NCBI RefSeq assembly: GCF_001027285.1
Contig: NZ_CP011509.1
Location: forward strand, 236,501-300,500
Length of the DNA stretch: 64,000 nucleotides
Source of the DNA: Archangium gephyra
GTDB taxonomy: Bacteria > Myxococcota > Myxococcia > Myxococcales > Myxococcaceae
Direction: 5' to 3'
This document shows positions 10,425-13,920 of the stretch, piece by piece. The notes below the pieces were generated by a model that was given only the letters and a program-made list of their open reading frames with translations, was not told the DNA's origin and ran no database searches. The translations under genes and the position numbers were made by a program. Every line of letters begins with the position of its first letter. The stretch's first letter is position 1.

Positions 10425-10715
10425 ATGCGGCGCGCCCTGTCCACCCTGCTCGCACTCGTCCTCGTCCTGCTGCTGGGCGCGACGGCGGCCCGCGCGTCGG
10501 AGGACACGTCCTGTGAGGACTGCTGCGAGAGCACCACGCCGTGCCCCGCCACCTGCCTGGCTTGTCCGTGTGGCCGCATGCTGTCCCCCCTGCCCGTGGA
10601 AGCGCCCTCGCTACCACCGGCCTGGCTGCAACACGTGCCCGCTGGATGGACGGAACCCCTTCCTCCGCCCCTCCGGTTGCACGCGTGTGACGTATTCCAG
10701 CCTCCCCGTGACTGA
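10425..10715 (+). CDS. Small secreted Cys-rich protein
   Basis: A 96-residue protein with a classical signal peptide (MRRALSTLLALVLVLLLG, cleavage probably after ARA) and a mature N-terminus with a cysteine cluster: CEDCCESTTPCPATCLACPCG. The C-terminus ends in the aromatic/proline pattern CDVFQPPR, which I associate with small proteins beside metal-efflux genes. The Cys cluster could bind metal or form disulfides in the periplasm. It precedes a thioredoxin-like lipoprotein and the CAGU selenoprotein, all on the plus strand, so a role in metal or thiol chemistry is reasonable but not shown. Confidence 0.65.
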   Translation: MRRALSTLLALVLVLLLGATAARASEDTSCEDCCESTTPCPATCLACPCGRMLSPLPVEAPSLPPAWLQHVPAGWTEPLPPPLRLHACDVFQPPRD

Positions 10716-10871: not shown

Positions 10872-11504
10872 ATGCGTTGGATGAAGACCCTGTGTGTCCT
10901 GGGTGGCCTCGCCGCCGCCGGATGCGCCACCCCCTCCGCCCACGGCAACCTCAGCTCGCTGAGCGTCGCCTCCTCCCAGGACGCCGCCTTCTGCGAGCAC
11001 CGCATCCCCCAGGAGAACTGCACCCGCTGCCACCCCGAGCTCGCCCCCCGCTTCCAGGCCGCGAAGGACTGGTGCGGCGAGCACGGCGTCCCCGAGTCCC
11101 AGTGCTTCACCTGCCACCCGGACCTGTCCTTCGAGCCCCTGCCGGTGCTCGCCCCCGGCGCGGATCTGGTGAAGCTCTCCCACGAGGGCGAGGACGTGCC
11201 CGAGCTCGCCCCCCACGCCGTGCCCGGCAAGGTCACCGTCTTCGACTTCTACGCCGACTGGTGCCCCCCCTGCCGCAAGGTGGATGCCCACATGTTCTCC
11301 CTGCTCAACACGCGCCAGGACATCGCCTACCGCAAGCTCAATGTCGTCTCGTGGGACTCGCCCCTCGCCAAGCGCCACCTCGGGCAGGTGGAGAACCTCC
11401 CGTACCTCGTCGTGTATGGGAAGGACGGGAAGCAGGTGCGCACCGTGAAGGGTTTCGACCTGGCCGCGCTGAACGCGGCGCTCGCCGAGGCGGGTGCACG
11501 ATGA
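10872..11504 (+). CDS. Thioredoxin-fold lipoprotein with two CxxCH motifs
   Basis: A 210-residue protein. The signal ends in the lipobox LAAAGCA (Cys18), so it should be anchored in a membrane facing the periplasm or surface. Residues 35-85 hold two similar units, each with a Cys-rich lead and CxxCH: FCEHRIPQENCTRCHPEL and WCGEHGVPESQCFTCHPDL. CxxCH can hold c-type heme, but related CEH-CxxCH units also occur in metal-efflux adaptors, so metal binding is the other option. The C-terminal half is a thioredoxin domain with active site DWCPPCRKVD. GGAGCTGAAC before the ATG at 10872 sets the start. Its stop overlaps the next ATG (ATGA), coupling it to the selenoprotein. Confidence 0.85.
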   Translation: MRWMKTLCVLGGLAAAGCATPSAHGNLSSLSVASSQDAAFCEHRIPQENCTRCHPELAPRFQAAKDWCGEHGVPESQCFTCHPDLSFEPLPVLAPGADLVKLSHEGEDVPELAPHAVPGKVTVFDFYADWCPPCRKVDAHMFSLLNTRQDIAYRKLNVVSWDSPLAKRHLGQVENLPYLVVYGKDGKQVRTVKGFDLAALNAALAEAGAR

Positions 11505-12523
11505 GATGGGTGCCCATCGCCGTGGGCCTGCTGGGGCTCGCCATTCCCAACCGCGCCGCCGCCTGCGCGGGTTGAAGCAATCCCAACCTCCCGGTCGGGA
11601 GGGATTCCCTGTCCACCCTTCGCGCCGGGGAGACCAGCGTCTCCCTGTCCTCCCTCGCCACGTCCGTCCATGTGGTGCATCCGTCCGAGTGTCCGGACAT
11701 CGGCCCCATCTGCCAGGTGCGGGAGGAGCCGCCCCAGCTCCATGACCAGCACTTCACCATCGCCGAGCTGCGCGCCACGCTCGAGCATGGGCTGACCGAC
11801 GCGCTCGGCGTGGAGGTGCAGCTGCCCCTGCGCCTGAGCGCCACCACCGTGCGCTTCACCACGCTCGAGGGCACGCCCCTCACGCTCGACTACGAGAACA
11901 TCCACCACCGCGATGAGACGCTGTTCGGCCTCGGAGACCCGTGGGTGCTGGGGCGCTATGCGTGGCGGCTCGGAGGCGTGGGCCTGGCGGCGCGGCTGGG
12001 GGTAACGGTTCCCCTGGGGGGAACGGTGGAGAACCCGTTCGCGCTCGGCGCCCAGGGACTGCCCCATCAGCATGTGCAGTTCGGCACCGGCACCGTGCAG
12101 CCACTGCTCGGCCTGGAGGCCTCGCGCGCCTGGGGAGACTGGGGCGCTCGCCTCTATGGCCAGGCACAGCTGTCCCTCGTGGAGAACCGGTTCGGGTACC
12201 AGAGTGGCAGCCGCTTCGCCGCCGGTGTCTCCGCCGAAGGGCCTGTCATCGGCGCCCTGCGCTTCGGGGTCAGCGCCGATGTCGTCAACGAGCAGCCCGA
12301 ACGCTGGGATGGGCTCGTCCAACAGGATGGCAACCTCGGCCGCACCGATGTCCTCGCCGGCGCGGGCCTCGCGTTGCCGGTGGGCGCCGTGCGGCTCGGG
12401 TTGAATCTCCGGGTGCCCGTGTACCAGCACATCATCGGACACCATGGACAGCTCACGTATCCGGGCATCCTCCAGCTGACCGCGGGCTCCACCTTCGGTG
12501 GCTCGGGGCCTTCTCAGCCCTGA
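11501..12523 (+). CDS. Probable selenoprotein: CAGU motif plus beta-barrel-like domain
   Basis: A 340-residue protein if the in-frame TGA at 11573-11575 (codon 25) is read as selenocysteine. The start is MRWVPIAVGLLGLAIPNR, a signal peptide followed by Ala-Ala-Ala and then CAG-Sec-SNPNLP, a Cys-x-x-Sec redox motif at residues 22-25. The same frame stays open for 315 codons after TGA, with good codon bias. A SECIS-like hairpin follows directly. Residues 95-335 alternate short amphipathic strands (GLAARLGVTVPLGG, GALRFGVSADVV) and look like an outer-membrane beta-barrel. It is ATGA-coupled to the CxxCH thioredoxin lipoprotein, a likely redox partner. Its stop overlaps the convergent glutathione reductase by 10 bases. 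The alternative is a TGC-to-TGA mutation or two separate genes; the hairpin argues against that. Confidence 0.75.
11576..11606 (+). promoter_or_regulatory. SECIS-like hairpin after the CAGU codon
   Basis: Directly after TGA, CCTCCC (11587-11592) pairs with GGGAGG (11597-11602) around a GGTC loop, and AATC (11579-11582) pairs with GATT (11603-11606) below a 4-base bulge. The GGUC loop begins 18 bases after UGA. In E. coli fdhF the loop has the same GGUC core at about 19 bases, where SelB binds. Confidence 0.75.
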
Positions 12524-13920
12524 CGGGCGTCGTGACCCAGCTCCTTCGCCGCCGTCTCGGCTGGGTCCGGACGCTTGTCCCTCATCGTCACGAACTCCTC
12601 GGCCGCCGTCGGGTGGATGCCCACCGTCGCGTCCAGCTGCTTCTTCGTCACGCCACACTTCAGCGCCACCGCCAACCCCTGGATGATCTCCGGCGCGTCC
12701 GCTCCCACCATGTGGAAGCCCAACACCCTGCCGCTCTCGCGCTCGACGATGACCTTCATCATCGTCCGCTCGTCCCGCCCGCTCAGCGTGTGCTTCATCG
12801 GCCGGAAGTTGGAGACGTACACGTCCACCTTGCCGTGACGCTCCCGCGCCTCGAGCTCCGTACACCCCACCGTCCCCACCGGCGGCTGGCTGAACACCGC
12901 TGACGCCACCCCCGTGTGGTCCATCTTCGTCGGGTTGTCGTGGAAGAGCGTCTCCGCCAGCGCCCGGCCCTCGGCGATCGCCACCGGCGTGAGGTTGATG
13001 CGGTCCGTCACGTCTCCCACCGCGTAGAGGCTCTCCACGCTCGTGCGCGACCACTCGTCCACCTCCACCGCGCCCCGTGCGTCCAGCCGCACGCCCACCT
13101 CCTCCAGCCCCAGCCCCTTCGTGTTCGGCACCCGCCCCGTCGCGTACAACACCGCGTCCACCTCGAGCGTGTCTCCCATCCGCGTCAGCAGGCTCAACGT
13201 CCCGTCCGCCCGCTTCTCGATGTCCCGGATGAACGTCTCGGGCCGGATGTCGATGCCCTTCTTGCGCATCTCCTGCGTGAGCATCGCCCGGATGTCGTCA
13301 TCGAAGCCGCGCAGCACCGTGTCGCCCCGGATGAGCATCATCACCTTGGCGCCCAGCGCGTTGAAGATGCCCGCGAACTCCACCCCGATGTAGCCCCCTC
13401 CCACGATGGCCACCCGCCGCGGCAACTCCTGCAGGCCCAGCGCTCCGTCCGAGGAGATGGCGTGCTCGATGCCCGGCACCTCGGGGAGGAAGGGATGGGA
13501 GCCCGTGGCCACCAGGATGCGCCCCGCCGTGTAGTGCTGGCCCTTCACCTCCACCGTGTGCCCGTCCACCACCCGGCCCCGGCCCTCGATGAGTTGTACC
13601 CCCGAGTCCTTCAAGAGCCGCCGGTAGACCCCGTCGAGCCGCTCCAGCTCCTTGTCCTTCGCGGCCTGGAGCTTCTTCCAGTCGAAGCCGGGCTCCGAGA
13701 GCGACCAGCCGTAACCGGCCGCGTCCTCGAACTCGGCGTGGAAGTGGGCACCGTAGACGAGCAGCTTCTTGGGCACGCAGCCCCGGTGCACACAGGTGCC
13801 GCCGATGCGGTTGTCCTCACAGATGGCCACGCGCGCGCCATACGAGCCCGCGCGCCGGCTCGACGCCACCCCGCCCGAGCCCGCGCCAATCGTGAACAAA
13901 TCGAAGTCGTACTGGGGCAT
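12514..13920 (-). CDS. gor: Glutathione-disulfide reductase
   Basis: A 468-residue FAD-dependent pyridine nucleotide-disulfide oxidoreductase. It has the FAD-binding GAGSGGVASSRRA at residues 12-24, the redox disulfide GGTCVHRGCVPKK (about 40-52), the NAD(P)-binding GGGYIGVEFAGIF, the second FAD contact YAVGDVTDRINLTPVA and the C-terminal catalytic HPTAAEEF. The sequence fits glutathione reductase better than lipoamide dehydrogenase, because of VHRGCVPKK and the short spacing. It reduces glutathione disulfide with NADPH in the cytoplasm. Its end overlaps the convergent selenoprotein gene by 10 bases. A MITE-like element lies just upstream of its start. Confidence 0.92.
   Translation of the reverse strand: MPQYDFDLFTIGAGSGGVASSRRAGSYGARVAICEDNRIGGTCVHRGCVPKKLLVYGAHFHAEFEDAAGYGWSLSEPGFDWKKLQAAKDKELERLDGVYRRLLKDSGVQLIEGRGRVVDGHTVEVKGQHYTAGRILVATGSHPFLPEVPGIEHAISSDGALGLQELPRRVAIVGGGYIGVEFAGIFNALGAKVMMLIRGDTVLRGFDDDIRAMLTQEMRKKGIDIRPETFIRDIEKRADGTLSLLTRMGDTLEVDAVLYATGRVPNTKGLGLEEVGVRLDARGAVEVDEWSRTSVESLYAVGDVTDRINLTPVAIAEGRALAETLFHDNPTKMDHTGVASAVFSQPPVGTVGCTELEARERHGKVDVYVSNFRPMKHTLSGRDERTMMKVIVERESGRVLGFHMVGADAPEIIQGLAVALKCGVTKKQLDATVGIHPTAAEEFVTMRDKRPDPAETAAKELGHDARQG

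Follow-up and report, generated by a model that had tools for sequence, protein, structure and literature searches.

The locus described here raises the question of whether a gene interrupted by an in-frame stop codon is broken or encodes a selenoprotein of the cell envelope and, in the latter case, what such a protein would do. It occupies positions 11501-12523 (+) of a 64,000-nucleotide stretch of the Archangium gephyra genome (contig NZ_CP011509.1, positions 236,501 to 300,500 of the forward strand), hereafter referred to as the window. An earlier note, made from the sequence alone, had proposed that the internal TGA is decoded as selenocysteine (Sec, U) in an exported barrel-like protein working with its thioredoxin neighbour. 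The comparison of homologues leaves us almost certain that 11501-12523 should be read as a selenoprotein gene of the SelB type, depending on a selenocysteine insertion sequence (SECIS).

A conserved reading frame through an in-frame TGA

A single frame spans the locus, MRWVPIAVGLLGLAIPNRAAACAG-U-SNPNLPVGR..., in which the only internal TGA is codon 25 (11573-11575) and 315 codons separate this codon from the terminal TGA at 12521-12523. With TGA read as U, the gene is predicted to encode an exported beta-barrel protein of 340 residues bearing Sec25, an assignment based on read-through, homologues, AlphaFold2 (AF2) modelling and the ratio of nonsynonymous to synonymous substitution rates (dN/dS). 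Residues 1-21 (11501-11563) were recognised by eye as a signal peptide, with AAA directly before Cys22, and are followed by the Cys-Ala-Gly-Sec motif (11564-11575), whose states were counted in 82 distinct members of the family.

The continuation of the frame for 315 codons after the TGA, pointed out in the earlier note, was borne out by the homologues, in which both the TGA and the downstream frame are kept. The same TGA occurs in one A. violaceum contig reached twice (loci L010 and L035), in L011, in L012 and in seven other relatives with the CxxU form of the motif, and the part downstream of the TGA showed dN/dS values of 0.26-0.41 in five pairwise comparisons. The relatives thus keep their frame after the TGA, and the refuting condition of the same note, an ordinary stop at this place with no conserved frame behind it, does not hold.

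Covariation of the SECIS hairpin

A GGUC-loop hairpin was found after the TGA as the earlier note had described, with a spacer of 17 nt and not 18. The 6-bp stem (11587-11592 with 11597-11602) encloses the GGUC loop (11593-11596), and the whole hairpin (11587-11602) has a folding energy of -10.3 kcal/mol. For UxxU members of the LPVG type, 26 nt separate the first UGA from the loop, and both distances fall within the 16-37 nt spacing of the bacterial SECIS model as given in PMC13188914. Taken alone, the fold of the 40-nt segment is ordinary (-12.2 kcal/mol, z = -0.17 against shuffles), so that the case for a selenoprotein rests on the comparison of homologues.

In the 45 Sec members of the LPVG type, the six pairs were formed in 270 of 270 cells, compared with 87.5% in column shuffles, none of 500 of which scored as high, and with 47-67% when the pairing partner was slid. 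Cells changed on both sides numbered 28 against 5.8 in shuffles and the covariation score was 0.371 against 0.133, while two of the five covariation measures were not above the shuffles, namely the number of pairs showing a double change (2, with 1.7 in shuffles) and that of additional pair types (5, with 5.2 in shuffles). RNAalifold returned the same stem unprompted. The pair joining the third codon positions of Leu30 and Gly33 is CG in 27 members, GC in 14 and UA in 4, and since all these changes are synonymous, it is the RNA and not the protein that is selected. The second covarying pair, joining the third positions of residues 29 and 34, is CG in 35 members, UA in 6 and GC in 4, and there the amino acids vary too. 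Each covarying pair underwent at least 5 pair-type changes on the tree. The covariation of the hairpin, which the earlier note had listed as a check, is therefore positive in these 45 members, in the form of compensatory third-position swaps.

Codon bias as the origin of the covariation was ruled out by the analysis of 72 pairs of conserved four-fold positions, among them those of the hairpin. The Watson-Crick fraction over these pairs had a median of 0.34, and Leu30-Gly33 was the sole varying pair at 100%; among the other high pairs, P6-V7 reached 100% but is invariant (GC in 45) and S1-P6 reached 98%. Moreover, Val32 is encoded by GTC in 45 of 45 members, a codon accounting for 40.7% of the Val codons in the same genes. 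In L013 and L014, two Cys forms, the codons are GTG GGC and the GGUC loop is lost.

Outside the LPVG type the picture is more varied. Distant members carry other hairpins at the same place, such as those with CGGGU or CGGGC loops in L105, L106 and L109. A simple hairpin search returned no good candidate in L084 (-0.6) and weak ones in L077 (-4.8), L080 (-6.6), L083 (-6.9) and L106 (-6.2), all of them Sec members missing the energy limit. A loose search also accepted unrelated hairpins in the CxxC members L013 (-9.0), L014 (-13.8) and L057 (-11.2), so that generic SECIS limits, with which the hairpin of the window complies, are weak evidence when used alone, and it preferred another hairpin over the GGUC one in L023, L056, L059, L062 and L064. 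Three Planctomycetota loci (L139, L140 and L141) showed a different SECIS, with a stem of 7-8 bp by eye, a 3-base GGU or GUG loop and varying stem letters, a shape which suggests a SelB with a different loop preference.

Taken together, the conserved TGA, the covariation of the hairpin and the purifying selection after the TGA led us to reject both a broken gene and a pair of separate genes.

Selenocysteine machinery

The host genome (12.49 Mb, single contig) contains selA, selB, selC and selD, whose presence the earlier note had named as a check on its claim, all over cut-off: selA matched with 576 bits, selB with 327.3 bits, the tRNA-Sec, having the anticodon tca, with 73.2 bits and selD with 378.4 bits. 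The selB search covered this genome only. As the machinery is present and relatives keep the TGA, or carry TGC where the GGUC hairpin is lost, the selenoprotein claim of the note is supported.

The selD gene (L111, C1:4081289-4082215) is likewise predicted to encode a selenoprotein: its frame contains a TGA (NCAG-U-AAK) and, by inspection, a GGUC loop follows 32 nt downstream. The occurrence of GGUC loops after both the selD and the barrel TGA fits one SelB recognising the same loop.

Among 39 genomes of named homologues, selA exceeds the cut-off in 34 and is partially matched in another (174 bits); the genomes of L051, L055 (CxxC), L067 and L070, all four of them metagenome-assembled genomes (MAGs), gave no selA match. 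In the phylum set, selA occurs in 150 of 195 genomes and, by cross-reading, in 20 of the 21 with a Sec-type barrel, the exception being G049, which is 80% complete. Co-occurrence of selA and the barrel is necessary but weakly discriminating. The selA matches of G226 and G231 contain in-frame stops (TGA and TAA in the former, TAG in the latter), to be ascribed to assembly errors, to a match extending beyond the true end or to decay.

Distribution of the family and states of the motif

Of 98 related genomes searched at E <= 0.001, 21 contained relatives of the barrel, and 15 of these relatives, the window's own included, were strong and full-length. At E <= 1e-10, relatives were present in 26 of the 195 genomes from the phylum. 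A scan of named genome contigs, seeded with the peptide patterns SNP[NT]LPVG[GR] and H[QE]H[VIL]QFG[TA]G, yielded 51 loci. Neither pattern covers the Sec positions; the first overlaps the SECIS-coding residues, and the second, being free of the Sec positions, finds Cys forms equally well. The nearest named relative is Archangium violaceum Cb vi76, with 91% identity in the part after Sec. A profile search of 392 genomes belonging to the phylum of one Planctomycetota MAG gave 53 genomes with a match, from which 30 loci were taken. Of these, 23 had a readable N-terminus, all 23 being UxxU and 20 new (L116, L117 and L126 duplicate L078, L079 and L121); the N-terminus was not readable in L133, L136, L137, L138, L142, L144 and L145. 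None of the 32 pattern matches in viral contigs was a relative, and the plasmids searched gave no family match.

Record labels assign the members to Myxococcota (among them Polyangium, Kofleriaceae, Archangium, Myxococcus), Acidobacteria, Zixiibacteriota, Poribacteria, Planctomycetota and two Proteobacteria MAGs. Outside the Myxococcota, Planctomycetota is the leading phylum label among the MAG members; as many members are MAGs, single phylum labels may be binning errors.

Homologues with Cys or Sec at position 25, which the earlier note had suggested looking for, were found. The first set of 62 distinct N-termini comprised 46 UxxU, 11 CxxU (the form of the window, which is among them) and 5 CxxC sequences, while the complete set of 82 distinct members with a readable N-terminus contained 66 UxxU, 11 CxxU and 5 CxxC, so that 77 of 82 bear Sec. 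The Cys-Ala-Gly-Sec site of that note was confirmed, but the family is mainly double-Sec and CxxU is its minority form. Members were taken as distinct when differing over 90 bases, and near relatives (four Polyangium, several Planctomycetota) were counted separately. Six loci had no initial motif match (L039, L041, L052, L069, L108 and L110): L039, L041 and L052, with Ala after the second Sec, were counted through a widened pattern, three chance CRSC matches were removed, and L069 (QATC, no Sec) together with L108 and L110 (a fragment and a distant match) remained uncounted.

A quick tree of the 62 rows, calculated with the SECIS-coding residues excluded, showed 7 changes among the three motif states, with 17 of 59 inner branches open. 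The tree, the SECIS counts and the neighbour tables refer to the set before the addition of the 20 new Planctomycetota rows. As UxxU was found in every main clade, it is probably the ancestral state; the tree is unrooted, and the CxxC member L107 belongs to the clade nearest the midpoint root.

Three further loci deserve mention. The Planctomycetota locus L143, a weak overall match (E 1.6e-16), has TGA in two neighbouring codons and again after two intervening ones (U-U-P-N-U), a possible triple-Sec arrangement. Barrel gene fragments were observed at L024 (G001; 79% identity over 42 residues) and at L108 (G151; 82 positions with an internal TAG), in both cases with no intact copy found, and they are perhaps decayed remnants.

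Predicted structure of the barrel

The barrel-like domain proposed in the earlier note was supported by the AF2 model of the mature protein, calculated with 60 family rows, which reached a mean pLDDT of 92.0 and a pTM of 0.87. The underlying alignment (A4) contains 60 of these 62 sequences; the fragment L070 was omitted, as was L074, which is nearly the same as other Polyangium sequences. The model has 13 strand elements, or 12 strands if 118-123 and 127-136 are taken as one broken strand. The closest solved fold is 4rl8, a COG4313 channel (Foldseek E 2.0e-11; Z 24.0, rmsd 2.6 A over 245 residues), followed by FapF (Z 22), other barrels (Z not above 18) and PcoB (13.4). The viral structure library returned generic barrels only (best E 6.5e-6, TM 0.32), and a search of PDB sequences with the A4 profile gave chance-level matches only. 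The barrel would be located in the outer membrane.

Ahead of the first Cys/Sec, positions -1 and -3 are both occupied by small or permitted residues in 53 of the 62 members, and a lipobox-like -3/-1 pair occurs in none of the 62, so that the Cys/Sec is probably the first mature residue. In the COG4313 structure, about 14 N-terminal residues fold into the lumen (PMC4493636). The alignment with 4rl8 starts at model residue 11 with chain residue 1; the N-terminus may thus enter at the same place as that of COG4313, with the Sec motif some ten residues further out.

Both Cys/Sec positions are invariant in the 60 rows, as are five histidines (mature H39, H60, H115, H168 and H170), D125, W248 and several Gly and Pro residues. 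In the window the five histidine codons span 11678-12073, corresponding to H60 (11678), H81 (11741), H136 (11906), H189 (12065) and H191 (12071) of the precursor. From the order of strands assigned by DSSP, these histidines would be located at strand ends or loops opposite the short turns, on the extracellular side.

Thioredoxin partner and gene neighbourhood

The barrel gene starts (11501) within the end of the gene at 10872-11504 (+), with an ATGA overlap. The latter encodes a thioredoxin-domain protein (Pfam Thioredoxin, 35.8 bits, over cut-off) with a Cys/His-rich N-terminal module and, by eye, a lipobox-like start. In 12 of 63 loci the C-terminus of the barrel is fused to a homologous thioredoxin domain; in 29, the window included, a thioredoxin homologue is encoded directly upstream, one of these (L058) being a different weak match. 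A thioredoxin partner is therefore found upstream or fused in 40 of the 63 loci (28 and 12, respectively), and two flanks were too short for a call. The fusions in other species support the partnership claimed by the earlier note and provide strong evidence of joint action of the barrel and the thioredoxin protein.

In the Archangium/Myxococcus group, a separately encoded partner has a Cys/His-rich repeat as its N-terminal module. Among 10 partners scanned, a heavy-metal-associated (HMA) domain exceeded the Pfam cut-off in those of L052 and L065 and was sub-threshold in L066 and L085. The first CxxCH of the window's partner is CxxCN in others, such as L012 and L036, and CxxC is absent from L038, L040, L042 and L043; because of these changes in relatives, the motif is not a conserved haem site. 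The envelope redox system with a CxxCH partner envisaged in the earlier note thus retains its thioredoxin link, but its CxxCH motifs are not conserved as haem sites and the system looks metal-linked rather than cytochrome-like.

All five fusion C-termini scanned (L050, L054, L059, L061 and L064) contain a Cupredoxin_1 domain over cut-off after the thioredoxin, and several cupredoxin-bearing fusions have His-rich linkers. Genes for RND pumps (Pfam AcrB/AcrD/AcrF) occur near L038, L057, L059 and L067; at L057 and L067 they are accompanied by adaptors of the CusB/HlyD type. L063 is adjoined by the gene of a P-type ATPase that contains YHS and HMA domains. This link to a metal-pump neighbourhood is suggestive only.

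In the window, a small Cys-rich protein, exported as judged by eye, is encoded at 10425-10715 (+) and is possibly the first gene of the operon. It has tblastn matches at the same upstream place in A. violaceum L035 (E 2e-33), L012 (5e-7) and L013 (0.005), and a weak match (E 0.06) precedes the RND gene in L038. A sigma-70 promoter scan found no promoter. On the opposite strand, a gene recognised from its sequence as that of a glutathione-reductase-like flavoprotein (12514-13920, -) converges on the barrel gene with a 10-base overlap, and the tail of such a gene also adjoins the A. violaceum barrel copy (L010).

Proposed function

Combined handling of soft metals and redox chemistry at the outer membrane, as opposed to a cytochrome-type conduit, is the role we favour, with a confidence that does not go beyond an even chance. 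The metal link rests on the HMA partners, the cupredoxin fusions, the RND and P-type ATPase neighbours and the invariant histidines. According to this proposal, a selenol/thiol pair (CxxU here, UxxU in most relatives) would be carried at or near the free N-terminus of the barrel, in a segment placed in the barrel or at its periplasmic mouth, like the lumen-occluding N-terminus of COG4313. The pair might serve as a ligand of a soft metal, Cu(I)- or Hg(II)-like, and/or as a redox switch, while the thioredoxin lipoprotein would keep it reduced or exchange it, its own N-terminal module binding metal. The five invariant histidines at the outer end could form a second metal site, and the whole system might serve the uptake, export or detoxification of a soft metal at the level of the outer membrane.

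Several observations weigh against this proposal. No thioredoxin homologue of this type occurs in the flanks (1.5 to 6 kb) of 20 of the 63 loci, Polyangium, Planctomycetota and Poribacteria among them, and in 8 of the 10 partners scanned no HMA domain reached the cut-off. Metal-pump neighbours occur at only 5 of the 63 loci and were found by clustering and by eye, not in a full neighbour scan. Residues 1-20 of the model have a low confidence (pLDDT 66-70), which makes the placement of the Sec motif in the barrel tentative, the putative clustering of the histidines is judged from strand order, and the barrel fold is uninformative on the substrate.

A more extended version of the metal and redox proposal, which we put forward tentatively, regards the family as outer-membrane channels distributed across phyla, with an N-terminal Sec-x-x-Sec whose two UGAs would both be decoded by one SECIS. 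The diselenol of a lumen plug would act as a metal- or redox-gated latch, fed with electrons or metal by the thioredoxin-HMA or thioredoxin-cupredoxin partner; the double Sec, the common state, would probably be the older one, and CxxU and CxxC later replacements.

Among the alternatives, a thiol/selenol redox protein of the envelope with no metal role is the most probable, although we consider it less likely than the combined metal and redox role. In that case the thioredoxin lipoprotein would regenerate CxxU/UxxU as an oxidoreductase site, which would react with disulfides or peroxides at the outer membrane or would gate the barrel according to its redox state. The thioredoxin-type redox spacing of the motif and the thioredoxin partner found upstream or fused are both consistent with it, and the review PMC13188914 guesses a redox role for most uncharacterised selenoproteins; however, some partner domains are of the metal type (HMA, cupredoxin) and a reaction with disulfides leaves the five invariant histidines unexplained.

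A COG4313-like channel for hydrophobic or other small molecules, in which the Sec motif merely secures or gates the N-terminal plug, appears unlikely. The COG4313 channel is indeed the closest solved fold (Z 24.0), and import of hydrophobic molecules has been proposed for its family (PMC4493636). Nevertheless, PF13557 had no match at E <= 1 in any of 15 members (set A1), in a search that included no profile-profile comparison, the A4 profile gave no hit to the COG4313 channel among PDB sequences, and the anchoring of a plug gives no obvious need for two selenocysteines conserved across phyla.

Far less probable is a haem-based electron conduit made of an MtrB-like barrel and a CxxCH cytochrome partner, which we rejected on the ground that relatives do not keep the partner's CxxCH. 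The window's partner has two CxxCH motifs, its region matches cytochrome models weakly (NrfH 19.8 bits, OmcA/MtrC family 16.2 bits, far below cut-offs), and Shewanella MtrB is also an outer-membrane barrel with an N-terminal CxxC, the first Cys of which is functionally needed (PMC12175506). Yet the first CxxCH is CxxCN or CxxC-less in several relatives and the module is of the HMA type in others, and the present family differs from MtrB in having no conserved cytochrome partner and in the replacement of Cys by Sec.

Finally, it is hardly credible that the protein is no selenoprotein and that the locus is a broken gene, contains a sequencing error or consists of two genes separated by a genuine stop at 11573: TGA also terminates the barrel gene and is hence a stop codon in this genome, the lone local fold is ordinary and some CxxC relatives satisfy the generic SECIS limits too, but the conservation of the TGA with compensatory hairpin changes would need a coincidence across dozens of species, Cys occupies the same sites in relatives, the machinery is present and purifying selection extends past the TGA.

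Relation to known families

The protein shares with COG4313 (Pput2725, PDB 4rl8; PF13557) a 12-stranded barrel, predicted here, and an N-terminal segment ahead of strand 1; it differs in the CxxU/UxxU at the N-terminus and in the invariant loop histidines, and the word cysteine is absent from the text of the structure paper (PMC4493636). The copper transporter PcoB (PDB 7pge) is a barrel linked to copper by its title, but its structural match (Z 13.4) is far under that of COG4313 and among those of generic barrels, with no sequence match.

Sec is likewise predicted in outer-membrane barrels of the GSU2204 family, MtrB/PioB-type (NF041027), and in the TonB-dependent receptor of the FCYXU type (NF049945), as listed in Table 1 of PMC13188914; neither model matched the 15 A1 members at E <= 1, and five barrel members had no NCBIfam match at E <= 10. 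The UxxU metal-binding family NF041115 and the MerT/CopZ fusion-like heavy-metal selenoprotein NF045683 share UxxU or Sec in a heavy-metal context. They are matched weakly by the HMA modules of the partners L052 and L065 (29-31 and 16-22 bits, far below the curated cut-offs), and they are other protein families, Sec being here on the N-terminus of the barrel.

In NCBIfam release 20.0 (June 2026), the 15 A1 members matched at E <= 1 thioredoxin-type models, in at most four fused members, and otherwise gave three stray single-member matches, the best with E 0.00094 (RiPP model NF041723). Pfam returned nothing for the window barrel and, for the 15 members, sub-threshold single-member matches only (OMP_b-brl E 0.016, PagL 0.082). 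In neither collection did a model exceed its cut-off over the barrel. The 119-family table of the 2026 inventory (PMC13188914) lists no such barrel family. The main text of PMC12013277 and PMC5029168 contains no mention of outer membrane, barrel, Myxococc or UxxU; Archangium and Planctomyc are absent from the main text of the former, Haliangium and Plesiocystis from that of the latter. No description was found among the papers listed by the literature searches, the families of Haft and Tolstoy 2025 (PMC12013261) having been compared only via the review table and NCBIfam. Within the portions of these sources that were covered, Sec in a barrel and UxxU are each already catalogued (NF041027, NF049945, NF041115), and their combination is a new family.

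Significance

The results add a selenoprotein family outside the catalogues checked, in which Sec is the rule, mostly as two residues, and is placed on a membrane barrel instead of a thioredoxin fold. As standard gene callers end at TGA, the N-terminus with the Sec motif can easily be missed. The family is present in named cultured genera, namely Archangium, Myxococcus, Pyxidicoccus and Polyangium. Two questions arise: can a single SECIS serve two UGAs that are nine bases apart, and do cells employ selenium in handling metals at their surface? If the more extended version of the proposal is true, these proteins would constitute a selenium-based soft-metal gate of the outer membrane.

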